A DNA stretch of 64,000 bases from Azorinus chamasolen (lineage: Eukaryota > Mollusca > Bivalvia > Cardiida > Solecurtidae). Made by a program: the position numbers and the translations under genes. A model generated the notes under the pieces. That model was not told the origin of the DNA, did no database searches, and was given only the letters and a program-made list of their open reading frames with translations. Shown here piece after piece: positions 6,902 through 63,512 of this stretch (its first letter is position 1; each line of letters starts with the position of its first letter). The stretch is taken from the NCBI GenBank assembly GCA_963576725.1, contig OY755237.1:65335269-65399268 (forward strand), written 5' to 3'.

Positions 6902-7134
6902 CAGTATATAGCCGGGTACTAACGACACGTTGTATTAACGAACAATTCAGGACTGTTTAAGAAGGTTGTAGTTTAATGCAGGACGAATGTCATGCAGAAA
7001 GCTCCGAAAGAAACTTTCTGCATGACATTCGTCCTGCATTAAACTACAACCTTCTTAAACAGTTTCGAAATGCGTAAATCTACAACCTTTCTGAAAGACC
7101 GATATTGACACTAATTTAACTAGGGGTTTTACTG
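6902..7134. mobile_element. MITE with TA ends and long internal palindrome
   Basis: TA dinucleotides flank an element that begins CAGTATATAGCC and ends TTTTACTG. Its centre, 6961-7062, is an almost perfect inverted repeat of about 48-bp arms (GAAGGTTGTAGTTTAATGC and complement). Relatives at 12233, 34288, 60175 and 61933 share the GCATTAAGCTGC core. It fits a Tc1/mariner-derived MITE. Confidence 0.7.
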
Positions 7135-12544: not shown

Positions 12545-13325
12545 TGCAAGACGCAACCACCACCAAAACACCGATAGACAGCATGACACACACACACACA
12601 CACACACACACAACCACACACCCAAACGCACACACACACACACACACACACGCGCGCGAAATGAACACAGAAAACACCAAAAGACACACAAGAACCAGGG
12701 ACAAACGTTCCACACATGAACAAATCACAAGCACAAAGACGCAAGGCAAACAAAAGGAAGGGTGACAAAGAGAGTACCGCCTTGGCACCGTCAGTAGCAA
12801 AAACACCACTGGGGGTTTAAACCGGTTTACGGACGTCCTAACCTCACACTTCTCTCAAAGTCACCCTAGCTTTACAAATATTGTAAATAAAGGCATCCCC
12901 GCTGGACTTACCCACAACATAGACGACGGTGAACACAGGACAACATGTAAAACATAGCATAATAACTGTGACAATCCGTCAAATATGTACTCAATGACTT
13001 TGCTGAAGTCAGAGCACCTGCAGGTAAGCCGTTAAGGGCACGACAGGGAAAAAGTAATACATGAGTCTGGTAAGCTCCTCCTGTATCCAAGTTTAAGAGT
13101 ATACCATCATAGAGTACTACCCTCGGCCTGTCATCGCGCAAGCAAAGAGGGAAGCGTAGCTACCGACTGTAAAAGGGTCGATAACCAAACATGCAGTGCG
13201 TTGCAATATAATGGGATCATAACCTTTCTTTTTAAATGTTTTAATGCGTTTTATAAACAAATCATGAAAATGGATATGACCCCGAATTTTCCTAAGTTTG
13301 TAGATAACATCCCCATAAAAACCTT
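12545..13325 (-). mobile_element. Naiad-type PLE, 5'-truncated copy (subfamily B)
   Basis: Only the end of the protein remains (about 13325-13118 on the minus strand: a YGDVIYKLRKIRGH-like segment, then GYDPIILQRTACL and a FACAMTGRG terminus). It is followed by a SECIS-like structure at 13054-13120 and the 3' untranslated region. That region includes the conserved CCAAGGCGGTACT element near 12770-12790 and a (CA)n run at 12589-12652. The same tail occurs on the plus strand at 46.9-47.5, 54.5-54.8 and 57.1-57.4 kb. The 77-codon frame at 12908-13141 reads across the SECIS in another frame. Confidence 0.75.
13054..13120 (-). promoter_or_regulatory. SECIS-like element, subfamily B Naiad
   Basis: Minus-strand fold. 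Stem I pairs GUAGUAC with GUAUUAC. AUGA follows, opposite a GA in AGAC. Stem II pairs GGUA with UACC and CUCUU with AGGAG. An AAA run precedes a top helix CUUG/CAGG with loop GAUA. Spacing from AUGA to the AA run is 12 nt. Compared with subfamily A, stem II differs by compensatory pairs (GGUA:UACC versus GGCG:CGUC). Confidence 0.75.
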
Positions 13326-13820
13326 TTTAACGACGATATAAAACTAGAAGAGATGGTTATAAATGTACAAAATATGTTTTCATCGAATTGTTATGTCTAT
13401 TGACCTTATATAGCAGACACGTTCGATTACCAGTTGTATTTTTTCAGTCGCAGAATTGTTTATAAATAGATTGTATCAACTTAATGGCCAAACATAGTTC
13501 TTTCTCGTTCAAAACAATCTAATCCTTCGTTATAGTAAAGTCATTTAAATTCATATTATTTGAACAAAAGACATAGCGTATATCCAATAATTACTTAGTG
13601 CAATAGTAAGAGGTGTATCTGTTGCAATTTTATTTCTACTAGATCAACAATTAAATATCTTGTTAATGGTAGAGTGCTAGTGTGAAGATTAATTCTGATT
13701 TAGACTGAAACTCATCTAATATTATATATGTTCTAACATGAAATGCGCTACGCTGTGTCATTAAATATGTAGGTCAGACGGGCGTACTCTAAAAAATTTG
13801 TGGAAACATTTACCGCTGCA
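13326..13820. other. non-coding stretch, no gene seen
   Basis: AT-rich sequence between the Naiad fragment and the satellite boundary. Nothing recognisable. Confidence 0.45.
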
Positions 13821-17795: not shown

Positions 17796-18286
17796 TAGAT
17801 TAAAATTTCAAAAATGAAACATGCAGGAAACACCACATACAAAACAAACAGTCGCCCGAACAGCAACACAAGGAAATAGCAAATGTACATTACTATAAAA
17901 ATATCAAGAGACGCACAAAGACAAAACAAACATACAATAGGGGAAAGATTGCAGTACCACCTTGGAACGGTCAGTGACAAAAGTCACTGGGGGTTAATTC
18001 GGTTTATGGGCGCCCACCCTCACACTTATTCCATCCCCACCCTAAACGACACACAGTGTAAATAAACGTATCCCCTCTCCGACTAATCTACAACAACCGC
18101 GATGGCAAATACAGTGGTAACGTGCATGTATAACGAAAACATTTAAGTGAACAAACTGTATCAACCTATCGCTAGTGTACTCAATGATTGAGGTGCAAAC
18201 AGAGTAACTGTAGAAAAGTAATAAAGGGTACGACAACAACGAAAAAGTACAGATATCCGACGTTCTCCTTCCGTTTCTGGATTTAA

Positions 18287-18750: not shown

Positions 18751-20990
18751 TTAAGAGGTCGCCTTCATAGAGTACTAAACATTTCTTGTTGGCGTACATG
18801 CAAAGAGGCCAGCGTGATTGCCAACTGTAAAAAGGTTGACAACCAAACATGCAGTATGTTGTAGTACTACAGGATCATATCCCTTTTTAATGAATTTTTA
18901 ACATATTTGATGAACAAAGTGAGAAAATGGGTATGTCCAATAATTTTCGAAGTTTGTAAATAACATCACCATAAAATTCAGGATGTGAAATACCGTGTCG
19001 CAGAAGCGCCTTGAGATTACATTGGTACTTGCCAATAAGCGAGAGAGTTCGATAGTAAAATTTAGATAAAGGTTTTCTTAGTTTATGGTATCTATATCTT
19101 TGCTTAAGCAGTTTTTCAATTAAAATGAGATTTCGACTGTTAAAATCGTCAATAGATGAACAAGCTCTAGCAACACGAATATGTTGATTAATAAACTCCG
19201 TAAGATGGAGCACGGGGAAATCCCCATCAAGATGAGGAAAATTTACAATATTAAAATCAAAATAATTTTTTTTTCATATGTTTTAGACGAAACAATTCCA
19301 GTATCAATTTTAAGGTCTAGATCAAGAAACGCTGTATAATTGTCGGACGGGTTAGCTTTATTCAATCTGAGTTCTTTAGGATAAATTGTAGGAATCAGTG
19401 CATTAAAGAAAGGGTTATCTAAGTTAAAAATATCATCCAAATATCGACAAGTTTCATTGAAGGCTTTTATAACAACTTCTTGTGATTGAAGATTCAAACG
19501 CAACATGAAATCTCTCTCATAGCAGTACAAAATCAGATCTGGGACAAGTGGTAGTGCAGAATTCGTACCCATAGGAATACCAATTACCTGACGGTATATT
19601 GCATTCCCAAAATGTACAAATATGTTATCCAAAAGAAAGGTTAGTGATTCGCAAACTTCTGAGCACGTCCAATTGGTGTAATATTTCATTTGCTCGTCAG
19701 TAAAGAAAGCTCTTTCAGCATTACATGCCAGGAATGATGTTTTTTTCTCGAGCAAATACTTTCTGGACTAAGTTAGTAAGCTTATCCTTAATTAAAATAT
19801 GAGGAAGAGTTGTTTACAGAGTGGAAAAATTGTACGTGCTTACAGTAGATGCAATATACCTTTTGTTTTTTAAGAGTTCTTACTAGACCAGAAGAGATTT
19901 AATCCAGAAGTTTCACAAGTCTTATCACAGTAGAATTTTACATGTTCCTTTACCTTCGTTAAACAAGAAGTCAAAAGTATAGACCATTTAGTAGTTGTAC
20001 ATGAACAAGGATTTGCAATGAAACGCGCTTTATATGGGTTTTTTATGTAGTTTTGGTAACCAATACATTGCAGGAAGTTTACGTTGTGTAATTTTAATAT
20101 CGGTTCATAGCTGTTCACACTTTTTGACATGGTCTGAAACGATGGTATTTTCGTCAGTAGTGACTGAAATGAATGACTTGGTATTAATAATTTCCTGCAT
20201 CAAGACATCGATATAATGTACTCGTCAAATAATAATCACATTATTCGATGCCTTATCAGCAAGAACAAAAACGTATTTTGAATGGAAACCCTTTTTAAGA
20301 TGTCTAAAAGAAATTCTAGGTTCAGGTAGAAGAAGGTGTTTATTAGAGCTATAAAAGGAAATGCGTTTGTCAATTATATCAAAAAATAGTTTTTTCCAAC
20401 TAGAAAGAGCCTTAGACTCAACATGTTCTCTTCGACACCATTTAATGCTAACATTTTGTAAAGCCTCCGCAATCTGAACACGACAAGAGTTAAAATCTAT
20501 CAAGGATGGTATTCTATTTGAGACCTTTATTCAAAAGAGATCGTAGACGTTTATCTTTAATTATCTAAAAATTACCAGTACTCACATGACCAGCCGGGGA
20601 ATAGCAACATTTTGAGGTGGCGCAATATCAATTATCAGGAATATTATCATTAATATTAAGGTCGGCCACAATTTTATTACAGTTGAAAATTGTATTTCTG
20701 ATGGGTTTGTTATATTTGTAGCTGATGATAGGTGGTTCTGTATTTTTAAAGTATTTAGGAATAGTGTCAATTACATTTCCTGAAAGGATCTGATCTAAAA
20801 ATACTTTTATGGGCTTGCTCGTCAATTTCTTTTAATGAAGATACAGATAAGGAGGAAAGTATAGAAAGCATGGCATGTTTACCAGAAGTTAGACGTAAAG
20901 TATGTAGATCAAGAATAGTCATTTTCAAACGAGATTTTCGTCTAATATTACAATTTTTGCGAATGCCATGTTATCGAGATTTGTGTTTTC

Positions 20991-24164: not shown

Positions 24165-24304
24165 GATTTAGTAGTAGTAGTAGTGGTAGAAGTAGTGGTA
24201 ATAGTAGGTAGGTAGGTAGGTAGGTAGGTAGGTTGGTAGGTTAGTAACAGTAGCAGTAGCAATAGTAGTAGTAGTAGTAGTAGTAGTAGTAGGTAGGTAG
24301 GAGT

Positions 24305-24336
<32 letters not shown>

Positions 24337-24853
24337 TAGTAGTAGAAGAAGAAGTAGTAGGAGAATGAGTAGAAGTAGTAGTAGTAGTAGAAGAAGTAGT
24401 AGTAGGAATAGTAGTAGTCAGAAGAGGATTAATAGTAGAAGTAGTCGTAGTAGTAGTAGAATGAGAAGGAGTAGTAGCTGTTATGGTAGTAGGAATATAA
24501 ATAGTCGTAGGAGGAGGAGGAGGAGGAGAAGGATGAGTAGTATGAGAAGTAGTAATAGTAGTAGTAGTAGTAGTAGAAGTAGTAGTAGTATTAGTAATAG
24601 TAATAGGAGTAGCAGCAGTAGCAGCAGTTGTAGTAGTTGTAAAAGAAGTAAGAGTAGTAGTAGTAGTAGCAGTAGTAGGTAAGTAGGTAAGTAGCTAGGT
24701 AATAGAAAGAGTAGTAGTAGGAGATGGAGCAGGAGGAGTAGGAGTAGCAGTAGATTAGTAGTAGTAGGAGAAGGAGTAATAGGAGAAGGGGTAGTAGTAC
24801 AAGCAGTAGTAGGAGTTGTAGTAGTAGTAAAAGGAGAAGTAGTAGTAGAAGTA

Positions 24854-24884
<31 letters not shown>

Positions 24885-24931
24885 CAGTAGTAGTAGCAGT
24901 AGTAGTACTAGTAGTAGTTGTAGTAGTAGTA

Positions 24932-24962
<31 letters not shown>

Positions 24963-25172
24963 GAGGAGGAGGAGGAGAAGAAGAAGTAGTAGGGGAATGA
25001 GTAGAAGTAGTAGTAGAAGAAGTAGTAGTAGGAGTAGTAGTCGGAGGACTTATAGTAGTACTAGTCGTAGTAGTAAAAGAATGAGAAGGAGTGGTAGCTG
25101 TAATGGTAGTAGGAATATAAATAATAATAGTTGTAGTAGTGGTAGTAGTAGTAGTAGTAGTAGTAGTAGTAA

Positions 25173-25214
<42 letters not shown>

Positions 25215-25454
25215 GAGGAGGAGGAGGAGGAGGAGTAGCAGTAGCAGTAGTAGTAGTAGGAGAAGTAGTAGTAGGAGAATGAGTAGAAATAGTAATAGTA
25301 GAAGTAGTAGTTGTAGTAGGAGTTGTAGTAGTAGTGGAATGATAAGTAGTAGCACAAGTAGTAGTAGTAGTAGTAGTAGTAGTAGAAGTAGTTCTTATAG
25401 TAGTAGTAGTAGTAGAAGCAGTAGGAATAGTAGTAGGATTAGTATTATTATTAT
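24165..25454. repeat. (TAG)n imperfect microsatellite block, left
   Basis: About 1.3 kb of TAG/AGG/AAG/TAGG repeats. Long frames on both strands (poly-Ser, Thr, Leu, Tyr) are artefacts. A segment (GGTAAGTAGGTAAGTAGCTA followed by GGAGATGGAGCAGGAGGAG) at about 24675-24805 recurs in the same orientation at 30790-30925. Confidence 0.9.
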
Positions 25455-30274: not shown

Positions 30275-30330
30275 ATTATCATTAGTAGTAGAAGTAGTAG
30301 GTAGTAGTACTAGTAGTAGTTGTCGCAGTG

Positions 30331-30408
<78 letters not shown>

Positions 30409-31018
30409 AAGTAGTAGTAGTAGTAGTAGGAGGAGGAGGAGGAGGAGAAGTTGTAGTGCTGTAATATAAATATTATTAGTAGTAGTTGTTGTTGTAGTAG
30501 TAGTAGTAGTAGTAGTAATAGTAGTAGCAGTAGTTGATGTAGTAACATGGCCTCAATCTCTGATATCCGTATCTGCAGATTATATTACATGTGCTCGAGA
30601 TAGTTAGGTAGGTAGGTATGTAGGTAGGTAATAGTAGCAGTAGCAATAGTAGTAGTAGTAGTAGTAGCAGTAGTAGTAGTAGAAGTAGTAGTAGTAATAT
30701 TAATAGTAGTAGGAGTATCAGCAGTAGCAGCAGTGGTAGTAGTTGTAGAAGAAGTAAGAGTAGTAGTAGTAGTAGTAGTAGCAGTAGTAGGTAAGTAGGT
30801 AAGTAGCTAGGTAATAGAAGTAGTAGTAGTAGAAGGAGTAGTAGTAGGAGATGGAGCAGGAGGAGCAGTAGGAATAGCAGTAGATTAGTAGTAGTAGGAG
30901 AAGGAGTAATAGGAGAAGGGGTAGTAGAAAAAGTAGTAGTAGAAGTTGTAGTAGTAGTGGAAGGAGAAGTAGTAGTAGAAGTAGTAGTAGTAGTAGTAGT
31001 AGAAGCAGTAGAAGTAGC

Positions 31019-31089
<71 letters not shown>

Positions 31090-31139
31090 AAGTAGTTGCT
31101 GTAGTATTAATATTAGTAGTTGTTGTAGTTGTAATAGTT

Positions 31140-31170
<31 letters not shown>

Positions 31171-31310
31171 AAAGAGGAGTAGTAGTAGTAGAAGAAGTAG
31201 TCAAAGTATTAGTAGTAGTAGGAGTAGTAGTAGAAGGTGTAGTTGTAGGAGGAGGAGGAGTATTGGTAGTAGGTATATAAGTAGTAGTAGTAGTAGTAGT
31301 AGTAGGAGTG
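30275..31310. repeat. (TAG)n imperfect microsatellite block, right
   Basis: TAG-type repeats are interrupted at 30540-30605 by a unique segment (ACATGGCCTC, then CTGATATCCGTATCTG) that also begins the left block at about 24090-24135. The right block therefore looks like the end of one block plus a second, direct copy of the whole block. The 242- and 107-codon frames are artefacts. Confidence 0.85.
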
Positions 31311-33225: not shown

Positions 33226-34275
33226 TAAAAGTACATGTTAAGAGTCATGCAGGAAACACCGCATACAAAACACACACCGGCCCAAACAGCACCACAATAA
33301 ACAGTAAAAAGTACATGTATATAAAAGACACAAAGAGACACACAAAGGCAAAACAAACATACAATAGGGGGAAGATGGAAGTACCACCTTGGAACGGTCA
33401 GTGACAAAAGTCACTGGGGGGGGGGGTTACCGGTTTTTGGGCGCCCAACCTCATACCTATTCCATTCCCACCCTCAAAGACAAACAGTGCAAACAAATGT
33501 ATCCCCTCTCCGACTAAACTAGAACAACCGCGATGGCAAATACAGTGGCAAAGTGCATGTAAATCGAAAACATATTTAAGTGAAGTAACCTATCGCTAGA
33601 GTACTAAATTATTGAGCTGCATTCAGAGAAACTGTAGAAAAGTAATAAAGGGTACAATTATCCGACGTCCTTCCGTTTCCGGATTTAAGAGCTTCATGGA
33701 GTACTAAATCTTTCTTGTCGGCGTACATGCAAAGAGGCCAGCTTGAATGCCAACTGTAAAGGGATTGACAACCAAACATGCAATATGTTGTAGTACCATA
33801 GGACCATATCCCTTTTTAATGAATTTTTTAATGTAATTAGTGAACAAAGTTAGAAAATGAGATGTCCAATGGTTAAACGAAGTTTGTGTATCACATCACC
33901 ATAAAATTCAGGATGTGAAACACCGTGTAGCAGAAGTGCCTTAAAATTACATTTGTACAATAAGTGAGAGATTTCGATAATAAAATTTAGAGAATGTTTT
34001 TCTTAGTTTATGATATCTATAGCCTTGCTTAAGCAGTTTTTCAGTTAAAATGAGATTTCGATTGATAACATTGTCAACAGAAGAGCTAGCTCTAGCGAAA
34101 CGAATAAGTTGAGATGTATAAACCCGGTAAGATGGTGCACAGAGAAACAATCTCCATCAAGGTTAGGGAAATTTACAATATTCAAATCAAAATCATCTCT
34201 TTTGTCATAAATTTAGGAGAAATTATTCCATTGTCAATTTTAAGGTCTAGATCGAGAAAAGCCGCACACCAGTTG
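33226..34275 (-). mobile_element. Naiad-type PLE, 5'-truncated subfamily A copy nested in subfamily B
   Basis: Minus-strand fragment holding the RT C-terminal region (for example LIRFARASSSVDNV, LLKQGYRYHKLRKTFSKFYYRN) and the full 3' untranslated region ending in GTACTTTTA at 33226. Its SECIS region (about 33650-33707) has lost about a dozen bases of stem II. It lies inside the linker/RT junction of the subfamily B element. Confidence 0.8.
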
Positions 34276-36063: not shown

Positions 36064-37313
36064 CCTTAGTGACCAATGTCATCATGAAAAGACTTTAAAA
36101 CTCTATTTACAAATGTTCTGGGTAAAACCAACTGCTGCCTGGGCTCATTATTTACAAGAATATTTCTATATAAGACCCCTCTTTGCAAAAAAAGTTTATC
36201 TTGAGTTCTAAAGAATTCAGCATGTTTCTTAAAATCTGGCAAATCTTTTTTAGTACAAGTGCGCCTATTTGACAGTAACTGAATCCAAAAAAGTAAAATT
36301 GGGTCATCACGTTGTGCTTTTCTCCAGTCGCTTGGTGACATAGTGGACAAACTGGTATATGACTCATGTAGAGAAAGGCTATCACAAACTGAAGGTTCAA
36401 ATACAACAGATTCTATTGTAACTGTTTGCATTGGTTTATACAGTCCTCTAATAGTGGAAGAATTCATTGTTTCAAAATTTTGCAAACGAGATAAACCATC
36501 TGCATCGGCATTACTTTTACCTGGCCGATAAATAATATCAAAATCATAAGCTGAAAGAGCTGCAAGCCAACGATGACCAGTTGCATCCAATTTAGCTGAA
36601 GACAAGATGTATGTTAAAGGGTTATTGTCAGTAAAAACAGTAAAATGTTGTCCATAGAGAAAATCTGAATTTTTTTCAGTAATAGCCCATTTTAATGCCA
36701 AAAATTCTAATCTAAATGCTGAATAGTTTTTCTCTGACTTGCTGAGTCCACGACTAGCATAACTAATGACTCTTTTAACCCCATTCCGTTCTTGATACAG
36801 TATAGCTCCTAATCCAACAGCAGACGCGTCTGTATGCAGTTCAAAGGGTTTTGAAAAATCGGCAAAACCAAGAATAGGTGCTGAAACCAAGGCATTTTTA
36901 ATACAACTGAATGCTTTTTCTTGCTCCTTATCCCAGTTGAAGTCCTGAACAGAAGCTGGTTTGCGTTTCTTATACTTTTTAGAAACTGAAGTAGGGGGAA
37001 GAAGTTTTTTTAGAGGTTGGGCCATAACAGCATAATTGTTTATATATTTCCTATAATACCCTGCAAATCCAAGAAATGATCTTAATTCATCAGCATTTTT
37101 CGGAACAGGCCAATTTTCAATTTTCTCAACTTTTGACGGATCAGTTTCTATACCATCAGAAGAAACAACATGACCAACATATTTAACCTTACTTTTGAAA
37201 AATTTACACTTTTTTGGAGCTAATTTCAGGTTACATTCACGAAGTCGCTGCAAAACTAAATTGAGTCTTTCCAAATGTTCTTCATATGTGCTACCAAATA
37301 TAATGATGTCATC
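36064..37313 (-). CDS. pol: Ty3/gypsy Pol, RT C-terminal part and RNase H
   Basis: Resumes at the second Asp of YYDD (DIIIFGS) and runs through LRECNLKLAPKKCKFFKSKVKYVGHVVS (RT thumb, split here only in description), FLGFAGYYRKYI, the RNase H domain with FELHTDASAVGLGAILYQ, and the FTDNNPLTYILSSAKLDATG motif. It ends in the integrase zinc-binding histidines (SFHDDIGH). A TAA at 36066-36068 stands where related elements have Gln in the GHQG sequence. Apart from that the frame is open for 400 codons. Confidence 0.88.
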
Positions 37314-37459
37314 TAAAAGTACAAAAATGAGTCATGCAGGAAATACCACATACAGAACAAACACTCGCCCGAACAGCAACACAAGGAAACAGCAAATGTA
37401 CATGGGTAGAAAAAAAAACAAGAGACGCACAAAGACAAAACAAACATTCAATAGGAGGA

Positions 37460-37530
37460 AGATGGAAGTACCGCCTTGGAACGGTCAGTGACAAAAGTCA
37501 CCGGGGGTTTAAACCGGTTTATGGGCGCCC
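37460..37530 (-). promoter_or_regulatory. conserved hairpin pair in the Naiad 3' untranslated region
   Basis: On the minus strand AAACCGGTTTAAACCCC precedes a hairpin (GGUGAC-UUUU-GUCACU type), then ACTGACCGTTCCAAGGCGGT, where ACCG can pair with CGGT around UUCCAAGG. The same block is kept in subfamily B (12.8, 47.4 and 57.2 kb) although surrounding sequence has diverged. It may be the RT's recognition structure on its own RNA. That function is inferred. Confidence 0.55.
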
Positions 37531-37760
37531 AACCTCACCCTTATTCCATCCCCATCCTAAAAGACAAACAGTGTAAATAAACGTATCCCCTCTCCGACTA
37601 ATCTACAACAACCGCGACAGCAAATACAGTGGTAAAGTGCATGTATAACAAAAAAACATTTAATTGAACATACTGTATCCACCTATCGCTAGTGTACTCA
37701 ATGATTGAGCTGCAAACAGAGTAACTGTAGAAAAGTAATAAAGGGTACGACAAAAATGAA

Positions 37761-37826
37761 ATAGTACAGATATCCGACGTTCTCCTTCCATTTCTGGATT
37801 TAAGAGGTCGCCTTCATAGAGTACTA
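37761..37826 (-). promoter_or_regulatory. SECIS-like element, subfamily A Naiad
   Basis: Minus-strand fold over 66 nt. Stem I is UAGUAC/GUACUA, then a small internal loop. AUGA stands opposite GGAU (tandem G-A pairs). Stem II is GGCG/CGUC plus CUCUU/AGGAG around a 2x2 mismatch. An AAA run lies 12 nt after AUGA, and a top helix UCCA/UGGA carries a GAAA loop. This is the layout of a type 2 eukaryotic SECIS. Its first three bases are the UAG stop codon of the RT frame. Confidence 0.8.
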
Positions 37827-40375
37827 AACCTTTCTTGTCGGCGTACATGCAAAGAGGCCAGCGTGATTGCCAACTGTAAAAGGGTTCACAACCAAACATG
37901 CAGTATGTTGTAATAATACAGGATCATATCCCTTTTTAATGAATTGTTTTATATATTTGATGAACAAAGTGAGAAAATGGGTATGTCCAATAATTCTACG
38001 AAGTTTGTAAATCACATCACCATAAAATTCAGGATGTGAAATACCGTGTCGCAAAATAACCTTGAGATTACATTTGTACTTGCCAATAAGCGAGAGATTT
38101 CGATAGTAAAATTTAGAGAAAGTTTTTCTTAGTTTATGGTATCTATATCCTTGTTTAAGCAGTTTTTCAGTTAAAATGAGATTTCGACTGTTAAAATCGT
38201 CAATAGATGAACAAGCTCTAGCAAAACGAATAAGTTGAGATATATAAACCCCGTAAGATGGAGCACGGGGAACATCCCCGTCAAGATGAGGAAAATTTAC
38301 AATATTAAAATCAAAATCATCTCTTTTGTCATATATTTTAGAAGAAATCATTCCATTATTAATTTTAAGGTCTAGGTCAAGAAACGCTGCATAATTGTCG
38401 GACGGGTTAGCTTTATTCAATTTGAGTTCTTTAGGATAAATTGTAGGAATCAGAGCATTAAAGAAAGGGTTATCTAAGTTAAAAATATCATCCAAATATC
38501 GACAAGTATCATTGAAGGCTTTTATAACATCTTCTTGTGATTGAGGATTCAAACTCAACATGAAATCTCTCTCATAGCAGTACAAAAACAAATCTGCGAC
38601 AAGTGGTGCACAATTCGTACCCATGGGAATACCAATTACCTGACGGTATATAGCATTCCCATAACGTACAAATATGTTGTCCAAAAGAAAGGTTAGTGCT
38701 TCGCAAACTTCTGAGCAAGTCCAATTGGTGTAATACTTCATTTGCTCGTCAGTAAAGAAAGCTTTTTCAGCATTACATGCCAAGAATGATGTTTTTTCTC
38801 GGGCAAATACTTTCTGGATCAAGTTAGTAAGCTTATCCTTAATTAAAACATGAGGAAGAGTTGTGTACAGAGTAGAAAAATCGTACGTGCTTACAGTGGA
38901 TGCAAGATACCTTTTGTTCTTAAGTTTGTTTAAGACTTCTGAAGAGTTCTTAATAGACCAGAAGAGATTTATTCCAGAATTTTCATAAGTCTTATCACAG
39001 TAAAATTTTAAATGTTCCTTTACCTTCGTTAAGCAAGAAGTCAAAAGTACAGACAATTTAGTAGTTGTACATGAACTAGAATTTGCAATGAAACGCGCTT
39101 TATATGGTTTTTTATGTAGTTTTGGTAACCAATACATAGTAGGAAGTTTATGTTGTGTAATTTTAATATCGGTTCCAAATTGTTCACACTTTTTGACATG
39201 GTCTGAAATGATGGTCTTTTCGTCAGTGGTAACTGAAATGTATGACTTGGTATTAGTAATTTCCTGCTTCAAGACATCGATATAATGTAATCGTCAAATA
39301 ATAATCACATTATTTGATGCCTTATCAGCAGGAACAAAAACGTATTTTGAATGGAAATCCTGTAAACCCTTTTTAAGATGTCTAAATGAAGTTCTAGGTT
39401 TAGGTGGAAGAAGGTGTTTATTAGAGCTGTAAAAGGAAATGCGTTTATCAATTATATCAAAAATTAGTTTTTTCCAACAAGAAAGGGCAGTAGACTCAAC
39501 ATGTTCTCTTCGACACCATTTAATACTAAAATTTTGTAAAGCCTCCGCAATCTGAACTCGACAATAGTTAAAATCTATCAAGGATGGTATTCTATATTTG
39601 GGACCTTTATTCAAAAGAGATCGTAGACGTTTATCTTTAATTATCTCAAAATTACCAGTAATCACATGACCAGCCGGAGAATAGCAAAATTTTGAGGTGG
39701 CGCAATCTCAATTATCAGGAATATTATCATTAATATTAAGGTCGGCCACAATTTTATTGTAGTTGAAAATTGTATTTCTGATGGGTTTGTTATATTTGTA
39801 GCAGATGATAGGTGGTTCTGTATTTTTAAAGTATTTAGGAATAGTGTCAATTACATTTTTGTCTCTAAAAATACTTTGTAGGTCAATAAAATCAATACCT
39901 TTATTAATAAAAGGAATTTTCAAGAAGAATCTTTGGTGTTCAGATAATTTGTCGATGTGCGGTCTGAGAACATGTAGAGTAAAGCTTTGTATCAAACTAG
40001 CAGTTCCTATGAGAGGATCTGATCGAAAAATAATTTTATCGGCTTGCTCGTCAATTTCTTTTAATGAACATATAGATAAGGAGGAAAGTCTAGAAAGCAT
40101 GGCATGTTTACCCGAAATTAGGCGTAAAGTATGTAGATCAAGAAGAGTCAATTTCAAACGAGATTTTCGTTTAATATTACCATTCTTGCGAATGCCATGC
40201 GATCGAGATTTGCGTTTTCTAATAGAAAAAATTGAAAAAATATCTATATCTGGTTCTTTTGAAATATTTCCAGTCTGGTAAATATTATCATTCAGTCCTA
40301 AAGGAAAAGGTGTTTGCAATTTTTTGATCCAATTTAATTCAGATATAAATCTAGCTTTCGATTTAAAGCTACTAG
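37824..40375 (-). CDS. Naiad PLE reverse transcriptase, putative selenoprotein (2 in-frame UGA)
   Basis: One register is open for about 850 codons except for UGA at 39708-39710 (codon ~222) and 39294-39296 (~360). Order: linker (NWIKKLQTPFPLG), a basic region (RKRKSRSHG), NDNIPDN-UGA-Asp-Cys with CATSKFC, then the N-terminal RT region (FVPADKASNNVIII-UGA-RLHYIDVL). The RT core has LPKLHKKPYKAR, YDFSTLYTTLPH (motif A, ~497), GIPMGTNCAP (motif B, ~581) and YLDD (motif C, ~626). The thumb and a conserved tail ending FACTPTRKV follow, stopping at UAG 37824-37826. As I recall, permuted PLEs (Naiad) have a CxC linker motif, and here UGA replaces its first Cys. I infer selenocysteine at both sites because a SECIS-like structure follows. 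The alternative is that these are two inactivating stops shared by descent. The endonuclease is missing by 5' truncation. Confidence 0.85.
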
Positions 40376-41816
40376 TCGTAGTAAATTACACAGATTTTCA
40401 AATTGTATTCACCTAAACATTCTTCCATAAGCCTTTGAAAAGTTGTTGGTGCTGAGCACAAACCGAATGGGAGGCGTTCATATTCATAAAATCCAAGTGG
40501 GCCTACAGTAAAAGCACTTCTTTCCTTATGAGAATCTTCTAGTTCAACCTGGTGGTACCCACTTTTCATATCTTAGACTGAGAAGTAACTATTTCCTGCA
40601 AGAGTATTTAAAATATCATATATTCTGGGCAAAGCATAACTATCTTTCTTAGTTTTATTATTCAACTCTCTAAAATCAACACAAAGTCTAAGTTCGCCAG
40701 TTTTCTTTCGTACCAAAACAACATTAGATGCCCACGGACTATGAGATTTTCGAATAATTCCACAAGCCAAAAGTTTCTGTAAATGTTCTCGAACTTCATC
40801 CAACATTAAAGGAGGAATACTTCTGTATCTTTGTTTAAAAGGAATTGTGTCAAAGAGTTCAATTCTATGTTTCACTAAGTTTGTAAATCCTACATCTTCA
40901 TCGCCTTTGGAAAATATATCTTCAAAAGAAGAAAGAGCATGTATGGCTGAATGAACTTGACTCTCTGTTAAATTTGCCCTATCAATCTCAATTTCATCTA
41001 AAAATGATTTCTTATCAGTTGCATTGGTTGACTGTCCTGAACTCAATACTTTATTTTCAATAGAGACAGGTTGAAGTTGAGCTATTGTACTCCTTGCCTG
41101 CAAAGTGATAGTCTGAGATGACAAATTTGAAACAGACACAGTAATTGGCAAAGCCCTCATGCCATAAGATATAACAGTAGGACAAATATCCAAAATTAAA
41201 TCTGAGTTTTCATCACAAGGTTGAATTATTGAACAGGTATCTCTAAAAGGTAATGACTTTTCACAAAAACAAGTAATGTCAACTGTTTTGTTTGGCAAAA
41301 TGGTAACAGCATTTGCACATTTCAAAAGTCCAAGTCTATTGTGTTTCCTTTTAAGAGACTTTGCTTGAAGTACCAAACACCTAAAAGACAAAAACCATGG
41401 TGTGTGAATAGGTGCTCTTTGCAGAAACTGTTTGCCATATTTCTGCTGACAACAATCTTGCAGATAATCTAAAATGTTTGTGCCAATAAGAACAGGCGTC
41501 TTAGAATTGAAATGACTTTCTGGAACTATTAAAAATAATCCTTGAATATTCCTGTCTAAAGGCAAACCTACTGTTTCAATATCAACATTTATGAAACCTT
41601 TATATGGCAATGACTGTCCATCTGCACATTCGATTTGCAAAATATCACTAAGTGGTTGGATCTGTATGAGAGATAAATATTTTGAATGAAAAGAATCTGA
41701 AATGGTGCTAACTGTACTTCCAGTATCCAGTAAAGCTCTAGTTTCAATATTATGAACCTTGATATCAGTAATATTTGAACTTCCAACTAACTTGGGATCA
41801 GTATCACTATCATCAC
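40376..41816 (-). CDS. pol: Ty3/gypsy Pol, protease and RT N-terminal part (interrupted)
   Basis: The frame overlaps the end of gag in the -1 register (GEGSAVGDDSD). The aspartic protease has ALLDTGSTVSTIS (about 41722-41690). A spacer follows, then the RT with RSIPPLMLDEVREHL, ACGIIRKSHSPWASNVVLVRKK (palm entry) and LRLCVDFRELN (motif A). One TAA at 40573 replaces what is normally Leu in FSVLDMKSGYHQV. The frame proceeds to LPFGLCSAPTTFQR (motif B) and stops being gypsy at the first Asp of YYDD, where a Naiad begins at 40375. The rest of RT is at 37313. Confidence 0.85.
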
Positions 41817-43228
41817 CTACGGCCGACCCCTCTCCATAGGCATTCTGTAGTTTAAATGTGTGTTTGATTGTGTTCTGTTGTTATAGTGGTCCAAAATTAC
41901 TCTACACCCTATCTGCATGTGTCCTCGCTGGCCACAACGCCAACAAATTATTTGTGAAGGTGTATTCGATGTTTGAGGTCTACACTGTTCGCTAAAGGTG
42001 CCTTGTGGTGGTGGTGTATAAGTATTTTGTTGTCCAGGTGTGTAAGTGTTTTGATGTCTTGGCGTGTAAGTGTTTTGTTGTCTTGGTGTGTAAGTGTTTT
42101 GCTGTCTTGGTATGTAATTGTTTTGCTGCCTTGGTGTAAAATGCTGTCTAGGGGTATAAGAAGGATCTTGATTCCTTGGAGTAAACTGTTGCTGTTTATT
42201 ATGTTGTTGTTGATTACGTTTCAATACATCTACATCCTCCTTTAAGGAGTGTAACACCTTTTCAATATTTGTAAGTTTATCATCAGACTGACTAACCATG
42301 TGTGAATGAGTAATATGAACTTTATCAAATTTTTGTTGCTGCTCAATTTTCCGGATTTCTATCCTAAGTACATCAAAATCAAAAATAGCATCAAATTTAT
42401 GACCACTCACATCTTTCAAACCTTTCCTTAAACCAGTGAAAAATTGATTACGAAGCATGTGATTAGAGTTCTCTGACTTAGCTTGTCCTAACTCAACAGC
42501 CTCTGAAAGAATTTGTTCTAATCTTAGTGACCAAGAAGAAACATCTTCATCCTCATTCTGCCTAGCTGAATAAAATTTGGAAAGAACAGTAGATTCACCC
42601 TCAACGGATCCATAAACTGAATTAAATTTCTCTATGATTTTATCAAGTGAGGGATTGTAGCCCAACCGCATCACAATATTTTTGGCTTCACCTTTCAAAG
42701 ACCTTCTAATTGCCTCATGTAAAGAACTAGTAGAATATTTACCCTCATTAATTAAACATTTCAATTCATATCTCCATTGCCAGTATGTAGCCTCTCCTTT
42801 ATTTGTATTATCACCATAAAATATAGAGAGTCTGGGAATATGTGAAGGCTTTATATCATCAGTTGGTGTATTCGATCTGGATCTACTAGGCAAAGGGTCA
42901 GAGTCATCGGATCTGGATCTACTAGGCAAATGATCAGAGTCAGGATGAGTTACAACTGTTTTCAATTACAACTCAGGAACATTAACATCTGGATCCTGCT
43001 TTGGTTTAAGAGGATAACTACCTGGAGTAGGCGTTTCAGGCCGAGGAAATCAGATGTAACACTTTTCATCCAATACAATAAATCTGCAGTAGAGGTAAAG
43101 TCGGGCCTTAATTTTAACTTATTCAAGGCATCAATCAACTTCATTTGTTCCGCAGGTGTCATGCCATCATCCTCAACAGGTGGATCAGCAACCTTATCTT
43201 CAAAATCACTAGGATACTTTGAAGCCAT
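41817..43228 (-). CDS. gag: Ty3/gypsy Gag (one frameshift, one stop)
   Basis: Structural nucleocapsid polyprotein of the gypsy element. It starts at a Met at 43228 (MASKYPSDFEDK). A one-base shift near 43035-43045 and a TAA near 42970 separate this short N-terminal part from the 382-codon main body. The body has a capsid-like helical region (RRSLKGEAKNIVMRLGY, then SVYGSVEGESTVL), a Gln-rich tract with seven or so copies of TPRQQNTY, and one zinc knuckle CWRCGQRGHMQIGC (CX2CX4HX4C) near the C-terminus. The stop TAG at 41817-41819 overlaps the protease frame, which is reached by a -1 shift. The lesions probably inactivate this copy. Confidence 0.85.
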
Positions 43229-46850: not shown

Positions 46851-47520
46851 AGAACAGAACAGAACTCATAAATGTTATGCTTTGCACAGCATTTATTCAC
46901 TATACTACAATATCCATTTTCATGATTTGTTTATAAAACGCATTAACACCTTTAAGAAGAAAGGTTATGACCCCATTATATTGCAACGCACTGCATAAAA
47001 AATTATGTGGTTATTGATTCATTTACATTCGGCAGCTACGCTTCCCTCTTTGCTTACGCGATGACAGGCCGAGAGTAGTACTCTATGATGGTATACTCTT
47101 AAAATCAGAAACGGGATGAGCTTACCAGACTCATGTATTACTTTTTCCCTCTCGTGTCCTTAACGGCTTCCCTGCAGGTGCTCTGCTGTCAGCAAAGTCA
47201 TTGAGTACATATTTGCTTGATTTTCACAGTTGTTATTCTATTTGTTACATATTGTCGTGTGTTTACCGTCTTCTATTGTGTAGGTAAGTCCGGTGGGGAT
47301 ACCTTTATTTACACTATTTGTAAAGCTAGGGTAACTTTGAGATAAGTATGAGGTTAGGACGTCCGGAAACCGATTTAAACCCCCCAGTGGTGATTTTGTT
47401 ACTGACCGTGCCAAGGCGGTACTCTCTTACTTTTGTTTGTCTTGTGTCTTTGTACTTGTGCTTTTGTTCATGTATGGAATGTGTCACAAAAATGTGATTC
47501 TTTTAAATATTAAATGACCT
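46851..47520 (+). mobile_element. Naiad-type PLE, 5'-truncated subfamily B copy
   Basis: Begins after a short (GAACA)n microsatellite. It contains the RT end (HDLFIKRINTFKKKGYDPIILQRTA), a SECIS-like element at 47075-47141 and the B-type 3' tail with GGTTTAAAC then CCAAGGCGGTACTCTC. Insertion next to a microsatellite agrees with the bias reported for these elements. Confidence 0.75.
47075..47141 (+). promoter_or_regulatory. SECIS-like element, subfamily B Naiad
   Basis: GUAGUAC/GUAUUAC stem I, AUGA with GA opposite (AGAC), GGUA/UACC and CUCUU with GAUGAG-side pairing, AAA run at the 12-nt position, and a short top helix with loop GAAA. Sequence and length match the copies at 13.1 and 54.6 kb. 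Confidence 0.7.
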
Positions 47521-47653: not shown

Positions 47654-48184
47654 TCGCATGTATAACGAAAACATTTAAGTGAACGAACTGTTTACACCTA
47701 TCGCTAGTGTAATCAATGATTGGGCTGCAAACAGAGTAACTGTAGAAAAGTAATAAAGGGTACGACAAAAACGAAACAGTACAGATATCCGACGTTCTTC
47801 TTCCGTTTCTGGATTTAAGAGGTCGCCTTCATAGAGTACTAAACATTTCTTGTTGGCGTACATGCAAAGAGGTCAGCGTGATTGCCAACTGTAAAGGGTT
47901 GATAGCCAAACATGCAGTATGTTGTAGTACAATAGGATCATAATTATCCCTTTTCAATGATTTTTTAATATATTTAATGAACAAAGTGAGAAAATGGGTA
48001 TGTCCAATAATTTTTATAAGTTTGTAAATCACATTACCATAAAATTCAGGATGTGAAATACCGTGTCGCAGAAGCACTTTGAGATTACATTGGTACTTGG
48101 CAATAAGTGAGAGATTTCAATAGTAAAATTTAGAGAATGTTTTTTCTTATTTTCATGGTATCAATAACCTTGCTTAAACACACG
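47650..48184 (-). mobile_element. Naiad-type PLE, 3' fragment of subfamily A
   Basis: Holds the RT C-terminus (LLRHGISHPEFYGNVIYKL), the SECIS-like element at 47779-47841 and part of the 3' untranslated region. It lacks the terminal 300 bp. It is bracketed by the 93-bp direct repeats. Confidence 0.75.
47779..47841 (-). promoter_or_regulatory. SECIS-like element, subfamily A Naiad
   Basis: Nearly identical to the element at 37761-37826: UAGUAC/GUAC stem, AUGA, GGCGACCUCUU stem side, AAA and UCCAGAAA. One changed base in stem II (AGAAG in place of AGGAG). Confidence 0.7.
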
Positions 48185-50525: not shown

Positions 50526-52032
50526 GAAATATTCCTGATAATTGAGATTGTGCCACCTCAAAATTTTGCTATTCTCCGGCTGGTCACGTGATTACTGGTA
50601 ATTTTGAGATAATCAAAGATAAATGTCTACGATCTCTTTTGAATAAATGTCCCGAATACAGAATACCATCCTTGATATATTTTAACTTTTGTCTAGTTCA
50701 GATTGCGGAGGCTTTAAAAAATGTTAGTATTAAATGGTGTCGAAGAGAACATGTTGAGTCTAATGCTCTTCTAGTAATAACTAATTTTTGATATAATTGA
50801 TAAACGCATTTCTTTTTATAGCTCCAATAAACACCTTCTTCAACCTAAACCTAGAATTTCTTTTAGATATCTTAAAAATGGTTTACACGATTTCCATTCA
50901 AAATACGTTTTTGTTCCTCCTAATAAGGCATCGAATAATGTGATAATTATTTGACGATTACATTATATCGATGTCTTGAAGCAGGAAATTATTAATACCA
51001 AGTCATACATTTCAGTAACTACTGACGATAAGACCATCGTTTCAGACCATGTCAAAAATTGTGAACAACTTGGAACCTATATTAAAATTACACAACATAA
51101 ACTTCCTACAATGTATTGGTTACCAAAACTACATAAAAACCATATAATGCGCGTTTAATTGCAAATTCTAACTCATGTACAACTACTAAATTGTTTATAC
51201 TTTTGACTTCTTGTTTAACGAAGGTAAAAAACATGTAAAATTCTATTGTGATAAGACTTATTAAAATTCTGGAATAAATCTCTTCTGGTCTATTAAGAAC
51301 TCTTCAGAAGTCTTAAACAAACTTAAGAACAAAAGGTATATTGCATCCACTGTAAGCACGTACGATTTTTCTACTTTGTACACATCTCTTCCCATTATTA
51401 TAATCCAGAAAGTATTTGCCCGGGAAAAAACATCATTCCTGGCATGTGATGCTAAAAAAGCTTTCTTTACTGACAAGCGAATGAAATATTACACCAACTG
51501 CACTTTCTCAGAAGTTTGCGAATCACTAACATTTCTTTGGATAACATATTTGTACGTTATGGGAATGCTATAAACCGTCAGGTAATTTGTATTCCTATGG
51601 GTACGAATTGTGCACCATTTGTCGCAGATTTGTTTTTGTACTGCTATGAAAGAAATGTCATGTTACGTGTGAATCCACAATCACAGGAAGATATTATAAA
51701 AGCCTTCTATGAAACTTCTCGATATTTGGATGATGTATTTAACCTAGTTAACCCCTTCTTTGATGCTCTGATTCCTAAATTCTTATCCTAAAGAACTTAA
51801 ATTGAATAAAGCTGACCCGTCCGACAATTATGCAGCGTTTCTTGATCTAGACCTTAAAATTGATAATGGAATTTCTTCTAAAATATATGAAAAAAGAGAT
51901 GATTTTGATTTTGATATTGTAAATTCCCCTTATCTTGACGGAGATGTTCCTCGTGTCCCATCTTACGGGGTTTATTTATATATCTCAACTTATTCGTTTC
52001 GCTGGAGCTTGCTCGTCTATTGACGATTTTAA

Positions 52033-52274
52033 CCACTCGCTTGCTGAATTTTAAAATACATTTCTCCTTCTTTACTCATGTCCTGTTGTTTAATTACATA
52101 TTTCTTCACTGTGTACAAATATTTCGCTATGCAATCGCTGCTTTGGATTGAACTGACTGCACAATCAACTTGTAAATAGTTCAGACCCTGATGAGACAGC
52201 TCCTGCAGGAGCTGTCTCATCTGGGTCTTCACTATTTACAGGTACGTATATTGAAGCGAATAGCAAGCGAAGGG
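52033..52274. mobile_element. MITE, TTAA-flanked, 242 bp (family P1)
   Basis: Third copy of the 242-bp element, with TTAA at 52029-52032 and 52275-52278. Removing it and one TTAA restores the surrounding Naiad sequence exactly as in the copies at 19.1 and 38.2 kb, which proves the target duplication. Confidence 0.9.
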
Positions 52275-52637: not shown

Positions 52638-52702
52638 TAGTACTATATGAAGGCTATCTCTTAAATCCAGAAATGGAAGGAAAACGTCAGATATATGTAC
52701 TA
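52638..52702 (+). promoter_or_regulatory. SECIS-like element, subfamily A Naiad (eroded)
   Basis: UAGUAC/GUACUA stem I, AUGA, CUCUUAAAUCCAGAAAUGGA apical part, and CAGAU on the 3' side. Several stem II bases differ (GGCUAUCUCUU/AGGAAAACGUC), weakening the lower pairs. Confidence 0.6.
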
Positions 52703-53335: not shown

Positions 53336-54830
53336 ACTAGCAGTTTGAAATATAAAGCTCGTTTTATCACAGAGCTAGACTGGATAAAGAAGTTACAAAC
53401 ACCTTTTCCTTTAGGCCTTAATGATAACATTTTCCAAAGCGGCAATATTTCTAAAGATCCAAGCATCGACATTTTCTCTATATAGTTGTCTAACATTTAT
53501 ATATAACCTTTAGTATGTATAACATTTCTTCACTGAGCTCTTATGATTTCTCTACACTCTATACTACTCTACCTCACCATATTATAAAGGATAAACTGAT
53601 TACATTAATAGAAAAAACCTTTGCCAGAGAAAACAAAATGTTCATTGCTTGTAATGTTCAACGTTCATTCTTTTCGAATTCAGAAGTTAAACATTACACA
53701 ATGTGGACATTCCTTGATGTTTGTAGATCTCTCTTACCTTTCTTTTAGATAATATATTTGTGCGTTATGGGGGTACCATATATCGTCAAGTTGTTGGTAT
53801 ACACATGGGTACAAAGTGTGTCCCTCTTGTTGCAGATTTGTTTTTGTTTTGCTATGAGAGGGATTTTATGCTTAGCTTAAAACCTGATACACAGACCGAT
53901 ATTGTTAATGCTTTTAATAAAACTTCAAGGTATTTAGACGATCTTTTGAATTTAGATAATCCTTATTTTGAAACTATGATTTCAATTCACCCAAAAGAAC
54001 TGTCTTTAACAAAAGCGAATCAATCTGACATTATAGCTTCATTTTTAGATTTGAATGTTTCTATTACAAATGATATAGTTTCGTCCAAAATATACGATAA
54101 AAGAGAAGATTTTAATTTTAAAATTGTTAATTATATGTTATTTCTAGATGGAGATGTGCCCCGTTCTACATCTTATGGGGTTTATATTTCTTAAATTATT
54201 CGGTTTGCCCGAGCCTGTTCTTTGCTTGAAGAGTTTAACAGTCATAATTTAGTTATAACTGATAAACTTCTTAAGTAAGGTTACAGATATCACAAACTTC
54301 GCAAAACATTTTCTAAATATGATTATCGAACTTTGCCACTCATACGTAAATATAATTGCAATCTACGGACGTTACTCTCAACCAGACTTTTATGGGGATA
54401 TTATCTACAAACTTAGGAAAATTCGGGGTCATATCCACTTGCATGATTTGTTTATTAAACGCATTAAACATTTAAGAAGAAAGGTTATGATCCCATTATA
54501 TTGCAACGAACTGCATGTTTGGTTATCGACCATTTTACAGTCGGTAGCTACGCTTCCCTCTTTGCTTGCGCGATGGCAGGCCGAGGGTAGTACTTTATGA
54601 TGGTATACTCTTAAACTCAGATACGGAATGAGCTTACCAGACTCATTTATTACTTTTTCCCTGTCGTGCCCTTAACGGCTTCCCTGTAGGTGCTCTGACT
54701 TCAGCAAAGTCATTGAGTACATATTTGACGGATTGTCACAGTTATTATGCTATGTTTTATATGTTGTCTTGTGTTCACCGTCGTCTATGTTGTGTGTAAG
54801 TCCAGCGGGGATACCTTTATTATACCCCCC
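53336..54830 (+). mobile_element. Naiad-type PLE, subfamily B copy, plus strand
   Basis: Starts ACTAGCAGTTTGAAATATAA, the position homologous to the 5' end of the 37.3-kb copy. The linker (DWIKKLQTPFPLG) is followed by a large internal deletion, then the RT from SLSSYDFSTLYTTLPH (53530). It continues through VVGIHMGTKCVPLVADL and RYLDDLLNLDN (about 53930-53962), the thumb, and a FACAMAGRG end. SECIS-like element at 54587-54653. Frameshifts at about 53745 and 54195. It ends near the next repeat at 54830. Confidence 0.8.
54587..54653 (+). promoter_or_regulatory. SECIS-like element, subfamily B Naiad
   Basis: GUAGUAC/UUAUUAC stem I, AUGA, GGUA/UACC lower stem II, CUCUU opposite AUGAG, AAA run at 12 nt, GA in CAGAC. 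The UAG stop codon is again part of stem I. Confidence 0.7.
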
Positions 54831-60349: not shown

Positions 60350-60548
60350 TGAAAACTTAAACATTTCGAACTTAAGAATAATTTAAATCCTTTTATACAA
60401 GTGGATGCTTACTGCAGAGTAGAATTTAAATAGAAAACGCCCAAAGTAGCTTCCTGATCACTTTCACCCTGTATTAAGCTGCAACCTGTCTTAATGATCA
60501 ATTCTGATATGGATTTGAATTTTCGAATAATCGCGATTTTATTGCATG
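60350..60548. mobile_element. MITE overlapping the 5' end of the LicD-like gene
   Basis: The right end (TTCGAATAATCGCGATTTTA) matches the right terminus of the MITE at 61933-62120 (TTCGCATAATCGAGATTTTA). The centre has GTATTAAGCTGCAACCTGTC. The left end, near 60350 (TTCGAACTTAAGAATAATTT), matches less well. Both candidate ATG codons of the downstream frame lie inside it. Confidence 0.65.
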
Positions 60549-61511
60549 TTAATAAATATCATTTATTTCCATACTTTGCAGTTGTAGCACTCTTCAACGT
60601 CGTTTTATTTATTGCTACGTGGTACTACGTCCATCTTTACGAACACCCTTCGTTCAATTTAACCATGGATTACAAGACAGGAATCCAGTGTTACCCTAAA
60701 GAACCTAGGTTTTCTTGGCTGCGCTGGTGGAAGAACAGAGGAAGTAAACAGGCACTGGACCTCCCGCAAAACTTAGCATCCTTTCAAACCACGCTGAGTC
60801 TCGATGATCAAACCATTTTGCGAAAACTATTTTTCAAAACTACCCAAATATTTCAAGACAATAACATTACGTACCATTTACAATTTGGTAGTCTGGTTGG
60901 AGCTTATCGACACTATGGGATAATACCATGGGATGATGATATAGATCTTTTCGTCAATATTACGTATCATGATACCATACGTGAATTGTTCAATGAAAAC
61001 AGCCCAGTCATGCTAGACAGTTTTCAATTAACCTTTATACCAACTCCTTATGGTTTTAGTAAAGTACAGATGGAATATATTAGATGGAAAAACAATACCC
61101 GTGAAAAATCTCACATGCGCTATCCATTTATTGATGTATTTTTTTTTCACAGACAACGGGAAATTTATTTCGGAATATACTCATGGGGCCTTTAGGAATG
61201 ACATGATTTTTCCATTGCAACAACGTTTATTTGAGGGAACGCTTCAACCGGTGCCACGTAGCATCGCATACGCAACAAAAATGGTTAGCAAAAGAAACGT
61301 ATTACATGAATGCTGTAGTAAACAAAAACACCATAACAAATTTAACAAGAAAATTAGATATGTATGTGTTCCATGCTCCGCACTCTATCCGTATTACCCA
61401 TTTGCAAGTAGGACACATAGTGAACAGGTTATAAGAATCGGGGCTGTTAACCTATCGCTTGAAAACAACGACGCCAAACAAAATTTCTCAGAAACGGTAT
61501 TCTGTCCTTAA
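60494..61511 (+). CDS. LicD/fukutin-family nucleotidyltransferase-like membrane protein (one frameshift)
   Basis: Likely a type II Golgi/ER membrane glycosyl- or phospho-sugar transferase. One hydrophobic segment at residues ~27-46 (FAVVALFNVVLFIATWYY) follows a short basic N-terminus. The LicD motif FGSLVGAYRHYGIIPWDDDI ends in DDDID (residues 147-151), the acidic metal-binding site of this family (fukutin, FKRP, bacterial LicD). The frame shifts at a run of nine T (61139-61147): one T fewer would continue FFF-TDNGKFISEYTHG. After the run, the second frame gives DMIFPLQQRLFEG and VPCSALYPYYPF, typical of the C-terminal half, to a stop at 61511. Total about 338 codons, single exon as seen. 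The first ~18 codons lie in a MITE. Alternatively an exon starts after the acceptor-like TTTGCAG ending at 60581. Substrate unknown. The T-run may be a sequencing error or a true pseudogene lesion. Confidence 0.75.
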
Positions 61512-63376: not shown

Positions 63377-63512
63377 CCCATGCTTATAAAGCTTTTTAGT
63401 TTAGTCTCAAGCTTTTGATTGGTCAGATTTGAGCCAAAGGCTAAAAAATCTGACCAATCAAAAACTAGAGAACGAACTCAAACTCAACTAAAATGTTTTA
63501 TAAGCATGGATA
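63377..63512. mobile_element. short palindromic MITE
   Basis: The whole element folds on itself: CATGCTTATAAAGC and GATTGGTCAGATTT pair with AAATCTGACCAATC and TTTTATAAGCATG. About 135 bp, no coding capacity. Confidence 0.75.

Follow-up and report, generated by a model that had tools for sequence, protein, structure and literature searches.

A probable type 2 SECIS element at the end of the reading frame of a Naiad-type Penelope-like retrotransposon in Azorinus chamasolen

The RNA encoded at 37826-37761, on the minus strand of a 64,000-nucleotide stretch of the Azorinus chamasolen genome (the window; contig OY755237.1, positions 65,335,269 to 65,399,268), is very probably a real eukaryotic selenocysteine insertion sequence (SECIS) of the type 2 kind. 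We put at roughly 93% the probability that a Naiad-clade Penelope-like retrotransposon has this type 2 SECIS in its mRNA and encodes, as its single protein, a selenoprotein made by decoding of in-frame UGA codons. The features read from the DNA that point to this are a structure that shows covariation, UGA codons at columns that hold cysteine in relatives, the position of the stop codon, the copy number and a tRNA-Sec gene. Craig, Yushenova, Rodriguez and Arkhipova reportedly described selenoprotein-coding Naiad Penelope-like elements in spiders and clams in 2021, and the present element thus belongs to a kind that is already known. Those elements reportedly resemble the present one in having an N-terminal GIY-YIG endonuclease, a CxC linker and a C-terminal telomerase-like reverse transcriptase (RT), as well as several in-frame UGAs and a very high copy number.

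Eukaryotic SECIS elements have AUGA/GA core pairs and an unpaired apical AA approximately 10-13 nt from the core. All parts of such a fold that the preliminary description had claimed for 37761-37826 were present in this copy, A1, when it was read on the minus strand: stem I, UAGUAC/GUACUA (37826-37821/37767-37762); the core, AUGA (37817-37814) opposite GGAU (37775-37772), a quartet that may be written UGAA/GGAU; stem II, composed of GGCG/CGUC and CUCUU/AGGAG; an apical AAA (37801-37799); and, above it, the mini-helix UCCA-GAAA-UGGA. The AUGA/GA quartet, the AAA 12 nt further on, the two helices and the mini-helix are also the features of type 2 SECIS elements as modelled by the Rfam family SECIS_1 (RF00031). 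The minimum-energy fold of A1 was the SECIS structure itself, at -19.4 kcal/mol (z -3.12), and none of 200 shuffled sequences equalled it. In a scan against 4227 Rfam families, SECIS_1 spanned A1 end to end and gave the top score listed, 26.0 bits, with SECIS_5 the second family by bits. The E-value of this match was 0.94 for 4227 families and the whole 64 kb, approximately 2e-4 if only SECIS_1 is counted (our own division of the 0.94), and 0.0026 for a 181-base query.

The curated cut-off of SECIS_1 is 35 bits. Four window copies scored 19.5-26.0 bits, all below this value, which we counted against the SECIS reading and which leaves some doubt if the window is taken alone. A descriptor that we made ourselves found two places in the window, A1 and a second copy, B1, compared with a mean of 0.35 and a maximum of 4 in 150 shuffles, a result that supports a SECIS but is only suggestive. 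The Infernal SECIS model proposed in the preliminary description identified A1 as best matched by SECIS_1 among the Rfam families, though below the cut-off. The description's proposal of a type 2 SECIS-like structure at the end of the Naiad frame was borne out by the fold, by SECIS_1 as the best family and by the overlap with the UAG stop codon described below.

The window copies fall into two subfamilies, A and B. In subfamily A, SECIS_1 also matched A3 (47779-47841, minus strand; 21.1 bits at 47840-47778) and A4 (52638-52702, plus strand; 19.5 bits at 52639-52701). A further copy, A5 (33650-33707, minus strand), has deletions in stem II and was absent from the earlier list. A2, likewise missing from that list, is split at TTAA by an insert into a 5' half (18751-18777, minus strand) and a 3' half that lies past the insert at 18229-18286 on the same strand. 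The insert itself (18750-18287, approximately 464 bp) sits exactly in the TTAA of the A2 SECIS, has TTAA on both sides and the ends CCCTTT.../...AAGGG, and looks like a piggyBac-type MITE. In subfamily B, B1 (13054-13120, minus strand) is intact, and SECIS_1 was the best of the 4227 families for it, with 23.2 bits at 13118-13056. B2 lies at 47075-47141 and B3 at 54587-54653, both on the plus strand and both with a broken apical helix; neither had a SECIS_1 match at E<=10. The fold of B1 had a z of -3.15, with 1 of 200 shuffles as good, and that of A4 a z of -2.78, with 2 of 200 as good, although the best fold of A4 pairs part of the core otherwise. Folding was not clear of chance for A3 (z -0.75), B2 (-1.50), B3 (-0.86) and A5 (-0.22), and these four copies look decayed. 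The top helix was complete in many of the A and B copies fetched from elsewhere in the genome.

Several details of the preliminary description had to be narrowed for the individual copies. The subfamily B top helix, CUUG-GAUA-CAGG, was found as described in B1 but is the helix broken in B2 and B3, and the stem I said to be kept throughout subfamily B has lost one pair in B3. The GGAU of the 3' side of the core does not hold in subfamily B, which has AGAC there; the outermost quartet position is U-C there versus U-U, a difference that we also counted against the SECIS reading. The 12-nt spacing between AUGA and AAA is kept in A1 and in the genome-wide pattern matches reported below, but is shorter in the deleted copy A5. 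The claim that the fold has undergone compensatory evolution fared better. Among seven window copies, 89.9% of the cells were paired and 5 of 19 pairs showed double changes. When 15 copies of subfamilies A, B and C (the last described below) were aligned, leaving out seven of the 15 C copies, 85.9% of 306 cells were paired and both sides had changed in 8 of 21 pairs; pair 21-51, for example, occurred as G-C, A-U and U-A, and pair 6-66 as G-C, G-U and A-U. None of the 15 showed any change in AUGA, in the apical AAA or in the 3' GA. In the covariation check that had been suggested, carried out as pair counts, none of 500 shuffles reached the covariation score and none had as large a share of paired cells; all slides of the counted structure scored lower. 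The number of double-changed pairs was reached by 18 of the 500 shuffles and the number of pair types by 277, which was counted against the reading. RNAalifold placed the upper stem one base off the counted structure, in a region where two C copies are gapped, so the count depends on the structure that we named. Moreover, the copies within a subfamily are close and there are three subfamilies only, so that the independent covariation events are few.

We searched the organism's own genome assembly (1.72 Gb) with SECIS_1, using no Naiad query. This search gave at least 15 matches at E<=1e-3, with scores of 39.9-45.2 bits, all above the cut-off; since scores were computed for 150 of the 67,113 candidates, 15 is a lower bound. 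The same model matched in none of 14 prokaryotic control genomes. All 15 of the listed matches belonged to one third element type, subfamily C, with the same core. Relative to SECIS_1, the window copies differ in scores below the cut-off, which the C copies exceed, and, in subfamily B, in the U-C of the quartet. By tblastn, a Naiad frame ended within 120 nt before the C element in eight of the 15, and in six C copies the frame ended five nt before the element, at residue 852; in one further C copy (L004) a broken C-terminal frame was visible by eye. No Naiad frame was found by tblastn just before the element in seven of the 15, which was counted against the reading; apart from L004, these copies may be 3' pieces. 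The 18-base core pattern TACTCTATGAN7CTCTTAAA had 16,912 exact matches in the genome, compared with 0 for a reversed control and 14 for the same pattern with one extra base between the blocks. The fixed AUGA-AAA spacing partly reflects common descent. Of 44 genomic loci that were fetched with their SECIS core, 35 had the end of a Naiad frame no more than 40 nt to the 5' side of that core.

The RT frame that ends at the A1 element (37824-40385, minus strand) has 853 codons, is 5'-truncated and lacks the GIY-YIG part. Its only in-frame stops before the terminal UAG are two UGAs, at codons 226 (39708-39710) and 364 (39294-39296). Two further RT parts in the window belong to A2 (18751-20778, minus strand), with the corresponding UGAs starting at 20630 and 20227, and to A4 (50528-52033, plus strand), with UGAs starting at 50543 and 50952. 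By its features, the A1 frame is a Naiad-type Penelope-like protein. Its structural model had a mean pLDDT of 88.4, and the best 15 Foldseek matches in the PDB were telomerase RTs (E 5e-10 to 7e-6), with modest TM-scores of 0.28-0.38 by query length. A Pfam scan of the A1 frame itself found no domain, and phmmer against the PDB returned only a weak match (E 2.6). Among the protein relatives, P0109 has an N-terminal GIY-YIG followed by an RVT_1 match below its cut-off, and P0126 has a GIY-YIG part, also below cut-off; the window contains endonuclease fragments, though A1 itself has no endonuclease. Between the two domains lies the CxC motif, which is C-x-C in the Cys-type relatives and U-D-C in A1. 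Canonical Penelope-like elements of the Penelope/Poseidon group, as outlined in PMC11167929, have a central RT and a C-terminal GIY-YIG endonuclease. They share the GIY-YIG endonuclease and the telomerase-like RT with the relatives of the present element, in which the endonuclease is N-terminal instead.

For DNA relatives outside this genome, viral contigs gave none, and contigs of other genomes gave none with a single-protein query. An alignment query found two contigs of other genomes with more distant Penelope-like elements, neither with a match to the end region; both are probably contaminants of symbiont or MAG assemblies. Since close outside relatives were lacking, the DNA comparison was drawn from the window and the organism's own genome. 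In one protein relative (P0089), a Penelope-like RT frame continues without a shift into a ubiquitin hydrolase (UCH) domain (PF00443, 8.7e-31). The same arrangement of Penelope-like RT and in-frame UCH was seen by tblastn at L001:4-2637, in a contig assigned to a Gammaproteobacteria MAG that is probably a contaminant.

The two UGA codons occupy defined positions in the protein and recur among copies. Codon 226 is the first position of the CxC motif, and codon 364 ends a predicted strand (356-364), after VPADKASNN. Both were UGA in all three window copies that cover both. In seven upstream fragments, representing A (90-97% identity to A1) and B (approximately 70%), codon 226 was TGA in 5 of 5 and codon 364 in 7 of 7, and the Naiad frames read contained no further stop. 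Among the 44 fetched loci, column 364 was TGA in all seven that cover it; six loci are common to the two sets, giving eight separate loci at this column. These 44 loci contained 68 in-frame stops in total, 36 TAA, 21 TGA and 11 TAG, which we counted against the selenoprotein reading; column 364 stands out among them with 7 stops, the next column having 3. Three older copies of the third type had TGA (two) or TGC (one, L021) at 364, and all three frames had other stops; the TGC was likewise counted against the reading.

At these positions, protein relatives in databases for the most part carry Cys or have predicted ORFs that break off exactly there. The N-terminal relatives ended exactly at residue 363 in 73 of 120 cases and at 225 in 26 of 120. 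In another set of 120 relatives, 70 had their start beyond column 364, and for 28 of these it was precisely 366. Since the database relatives were compared as proteins, the type of stop codon at these breaks is presumed, a point counted against the reading. Residue 226 was Cys in 71 of the 73 relatives ending at 363, with one Ser and one Leu, and column 364 was Cys in 40 and Trp in 10 of the 50 of 120 that span it. Trp also occurred at 226 in 15 of 120 N-terminal relatives, and at both columns it probably represents TGA read by code 4. By parsimony, a minimum of 18 exchanges of Cys and non-Cys took place at column 226, although the starred branches force only 4 changes in this weakly resolved tree (118 rows, 130 columns, 51 of 115 inner branches open); three of 121 rows with fewer than 90 filled columns had been dropped, and four of the kept rows had no state. 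Thus, the upstream in-frame UGAs align with cysteines of relatives, and the reading frame suggests that they lie in the same transcript as the hairpin.

UGA codons at cysteine columns were also found in the endonuclease part. A decayed N-terminal GIY-YIG fragment of a Naiad (13557-13780, plus strand), with one frameshift and one TAG at another column, carries TGA at 13706-13708 and 13739-13741; at both columns Cys-type relatives have Cys. The first column was Cys in all eight aligned Cys-type relatives; the second was a gap in seven and Cys in the two that aligned, one of them a fragment. An end just before the first column was seen in 84 of 120 endonuclease relatives, and one before the second in 2; 21 others read Trp at both. 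Taken with the UGAs of the RT frame, these codons bring the probable number of UGA sites in a full-length element to four.

The stop codon of the frame overlaps the SECIS. In A1 the terminal UAG (37824-37826, minus strand) forms the first three bases of stem I, and a second in-frame stop, UAA (37800-37802, minus strand), supplies with its AA two of the three apical A residues. The frame likewise stops at the first codon of stem I in A and B generally (UAG) and in most of C (UAA). The codon before the core was TAG in 40 of the 44 fetched loci, TAA in 2, TAC in 1, TTG in 1 and TGA in 0. In the 15 C copies, the frame-end codon was TAA in ten; four had a sense codon there and one (L025) had TGA, which was counted against the reading. 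A different ending was seen in 34 of 120 relatives, which run on to DSMM(V/A)PT or near it; in one that ends DSMMAPT (P0009), the last residue aligns to the codon just before the apical UAA, and in such relatives the SECIS probably overlaps the coding sequence. From the stop in stem I and these run-on proteins, it follows that the SECIS touches or overlaps coding sequence, unlike usual type 2 SECIS elements, which lie further down the 3' UTR. In a speculative and rather unlikely proposal, the overlap is a control device: every ribosome ending on the first codon of stem I, or in the other lineage in the apical loop, would have to open the SECIS, and selenocysteine supply, termination and refolding would jointly meter the amount of full-length RT. 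If it were true, retrotransposition would be selenium-dependent and self-limiting, and the approximately 17,000 mobile SECIS cores would be a reservoir from which host genes might gain selenocysteine decoding.

The host appears to be equipped for such decoding, as checked by its tRNA-Sec: the genome contains a tRNA-Sec gene scoring 80.7 bits, with anticodon tca. Weaker matches of the tRNA-Sec search were unspecific, since all 14 control genomes also gave matches, five of them above the cut-off. Clustered tRNA-like matches to this model, at 41-46.5 bits, were observed at G000:C8:93460576-93511959 and C1:60683786-60699209; these are probably ordinary tRNA arrays. In the mechanism that we propose, the hairpin at the frame end would recruit the host SECIS-binding protein (SBP2) and eEFSec with tRNA-Sec, and selenocysteine would be inserted at the UGAs approximately 1.5 kb and 1.9 kb upstream, at codon 364, probably in the RT fingers, and at codon 226 in the CxC linker. 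Full-length elements would have two further sites in the endonuclease domain. Translation would end at the UAG or UAA that is the first codon of stem I and, in the other lineage, probably at the apical-loop UAA. Our best guess is that selenocysteine replaces cysteines with a redox or metal-binding function in three places, namely the endonuclease, the CxC linker and strand 356-364.

Could the hairpin have another role, for instance as a 3' signal bound by the RT to prime cDNA synthesis, with its likeness to a SECIS due to chance and the UGAs read otherwise? Some retroelement RTs recognize 3' RNA structures, and every copy with the element carries it at the 3' end. However, the bases invariant in the 15 aligned copies include the SECIS bases, and the UGAs recur at the cysteine columns of relatives, so we regard this explanation as very unlikely; the hairpin may nevertheless have a dual role, as a SECIS and as a 3' signal for the RT. 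It is also highly improbable that UGA is translated as an amino acid throughout the host, by a variant code or a suppressor tRNA, making a SECIS unnecessary. The Trp of some database relatives at these columns is what a code-4 gene caller gives and would fit such a code, but the predominance of Cys among the relatives spanning column 364, the canonical tRNA-Sec gene and the lack of UGA at other columns of the seven fragments speak against it.

We find it scarcely credible that the copies are dead, with UGAs that arose as ordinary inactivating mutations and a hairpin that is a relic or a chance fold. In favour of this view, truncations and frameshifts occur in many copies, and the folds of four window copies are hardly better than those of shuffles. 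On the other hand, A1 is open over its 853 codons apart from the two UGAs, the same two codons are UGA in fragments of both A and B with no other stop in the frames read, and the hairpin shows compensatory pair changes. The selenoprotein reading, in which the hairpin acts as a SECIS for these UGAs, would tie the mobility of a retrotransposon to a scarce trace element and a costly decoding process through its polymerase. With thousands of copies, both selenocysteine and cysteine states and a covarying SECIS, questions of selenocysteine retention and exchange become testable in this genome, among them how near a stop codon a SECIS may lie and how frequently cysteine and selenocysteine are exchanged. 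Judged by titles and passages, none of the papers retrieved in a literature search dealt with selenocysteine or SECIS in Penelope-like or Naiad elements; a TE library paper names Penelope-like and Naiad elements together.

Other repeats and a few isolated features were noted in the window. The two flanks of A1 suggest that this copy sits inside a gypsy-type element (36066-42965, minus strand), with RT/RNase H, a weak dUTPase match and a PNMA-like gag, which the Naiad copy interrupts. The miRNA families returned by the Rfam scan of the window were rejected as inverted repeats below cut-off. Strong inverted repeats at 6963-7052 and 63394-63482, whose miRNA precursor scores fell below the Rfam cut-offs, are probably palindromic transposon pieces. 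Of the domains identified in the scanned frames, just one, a LicD-family domain (1.8e-13) at 60434-61195 on the plus strand, looks like that of a host gene. Naiads reportedly favour microsatellites, and long, degenerate arrays of (TAG)n, each of approximately 1 kb, occur at two places, 24169-25444 and 30283-31309.
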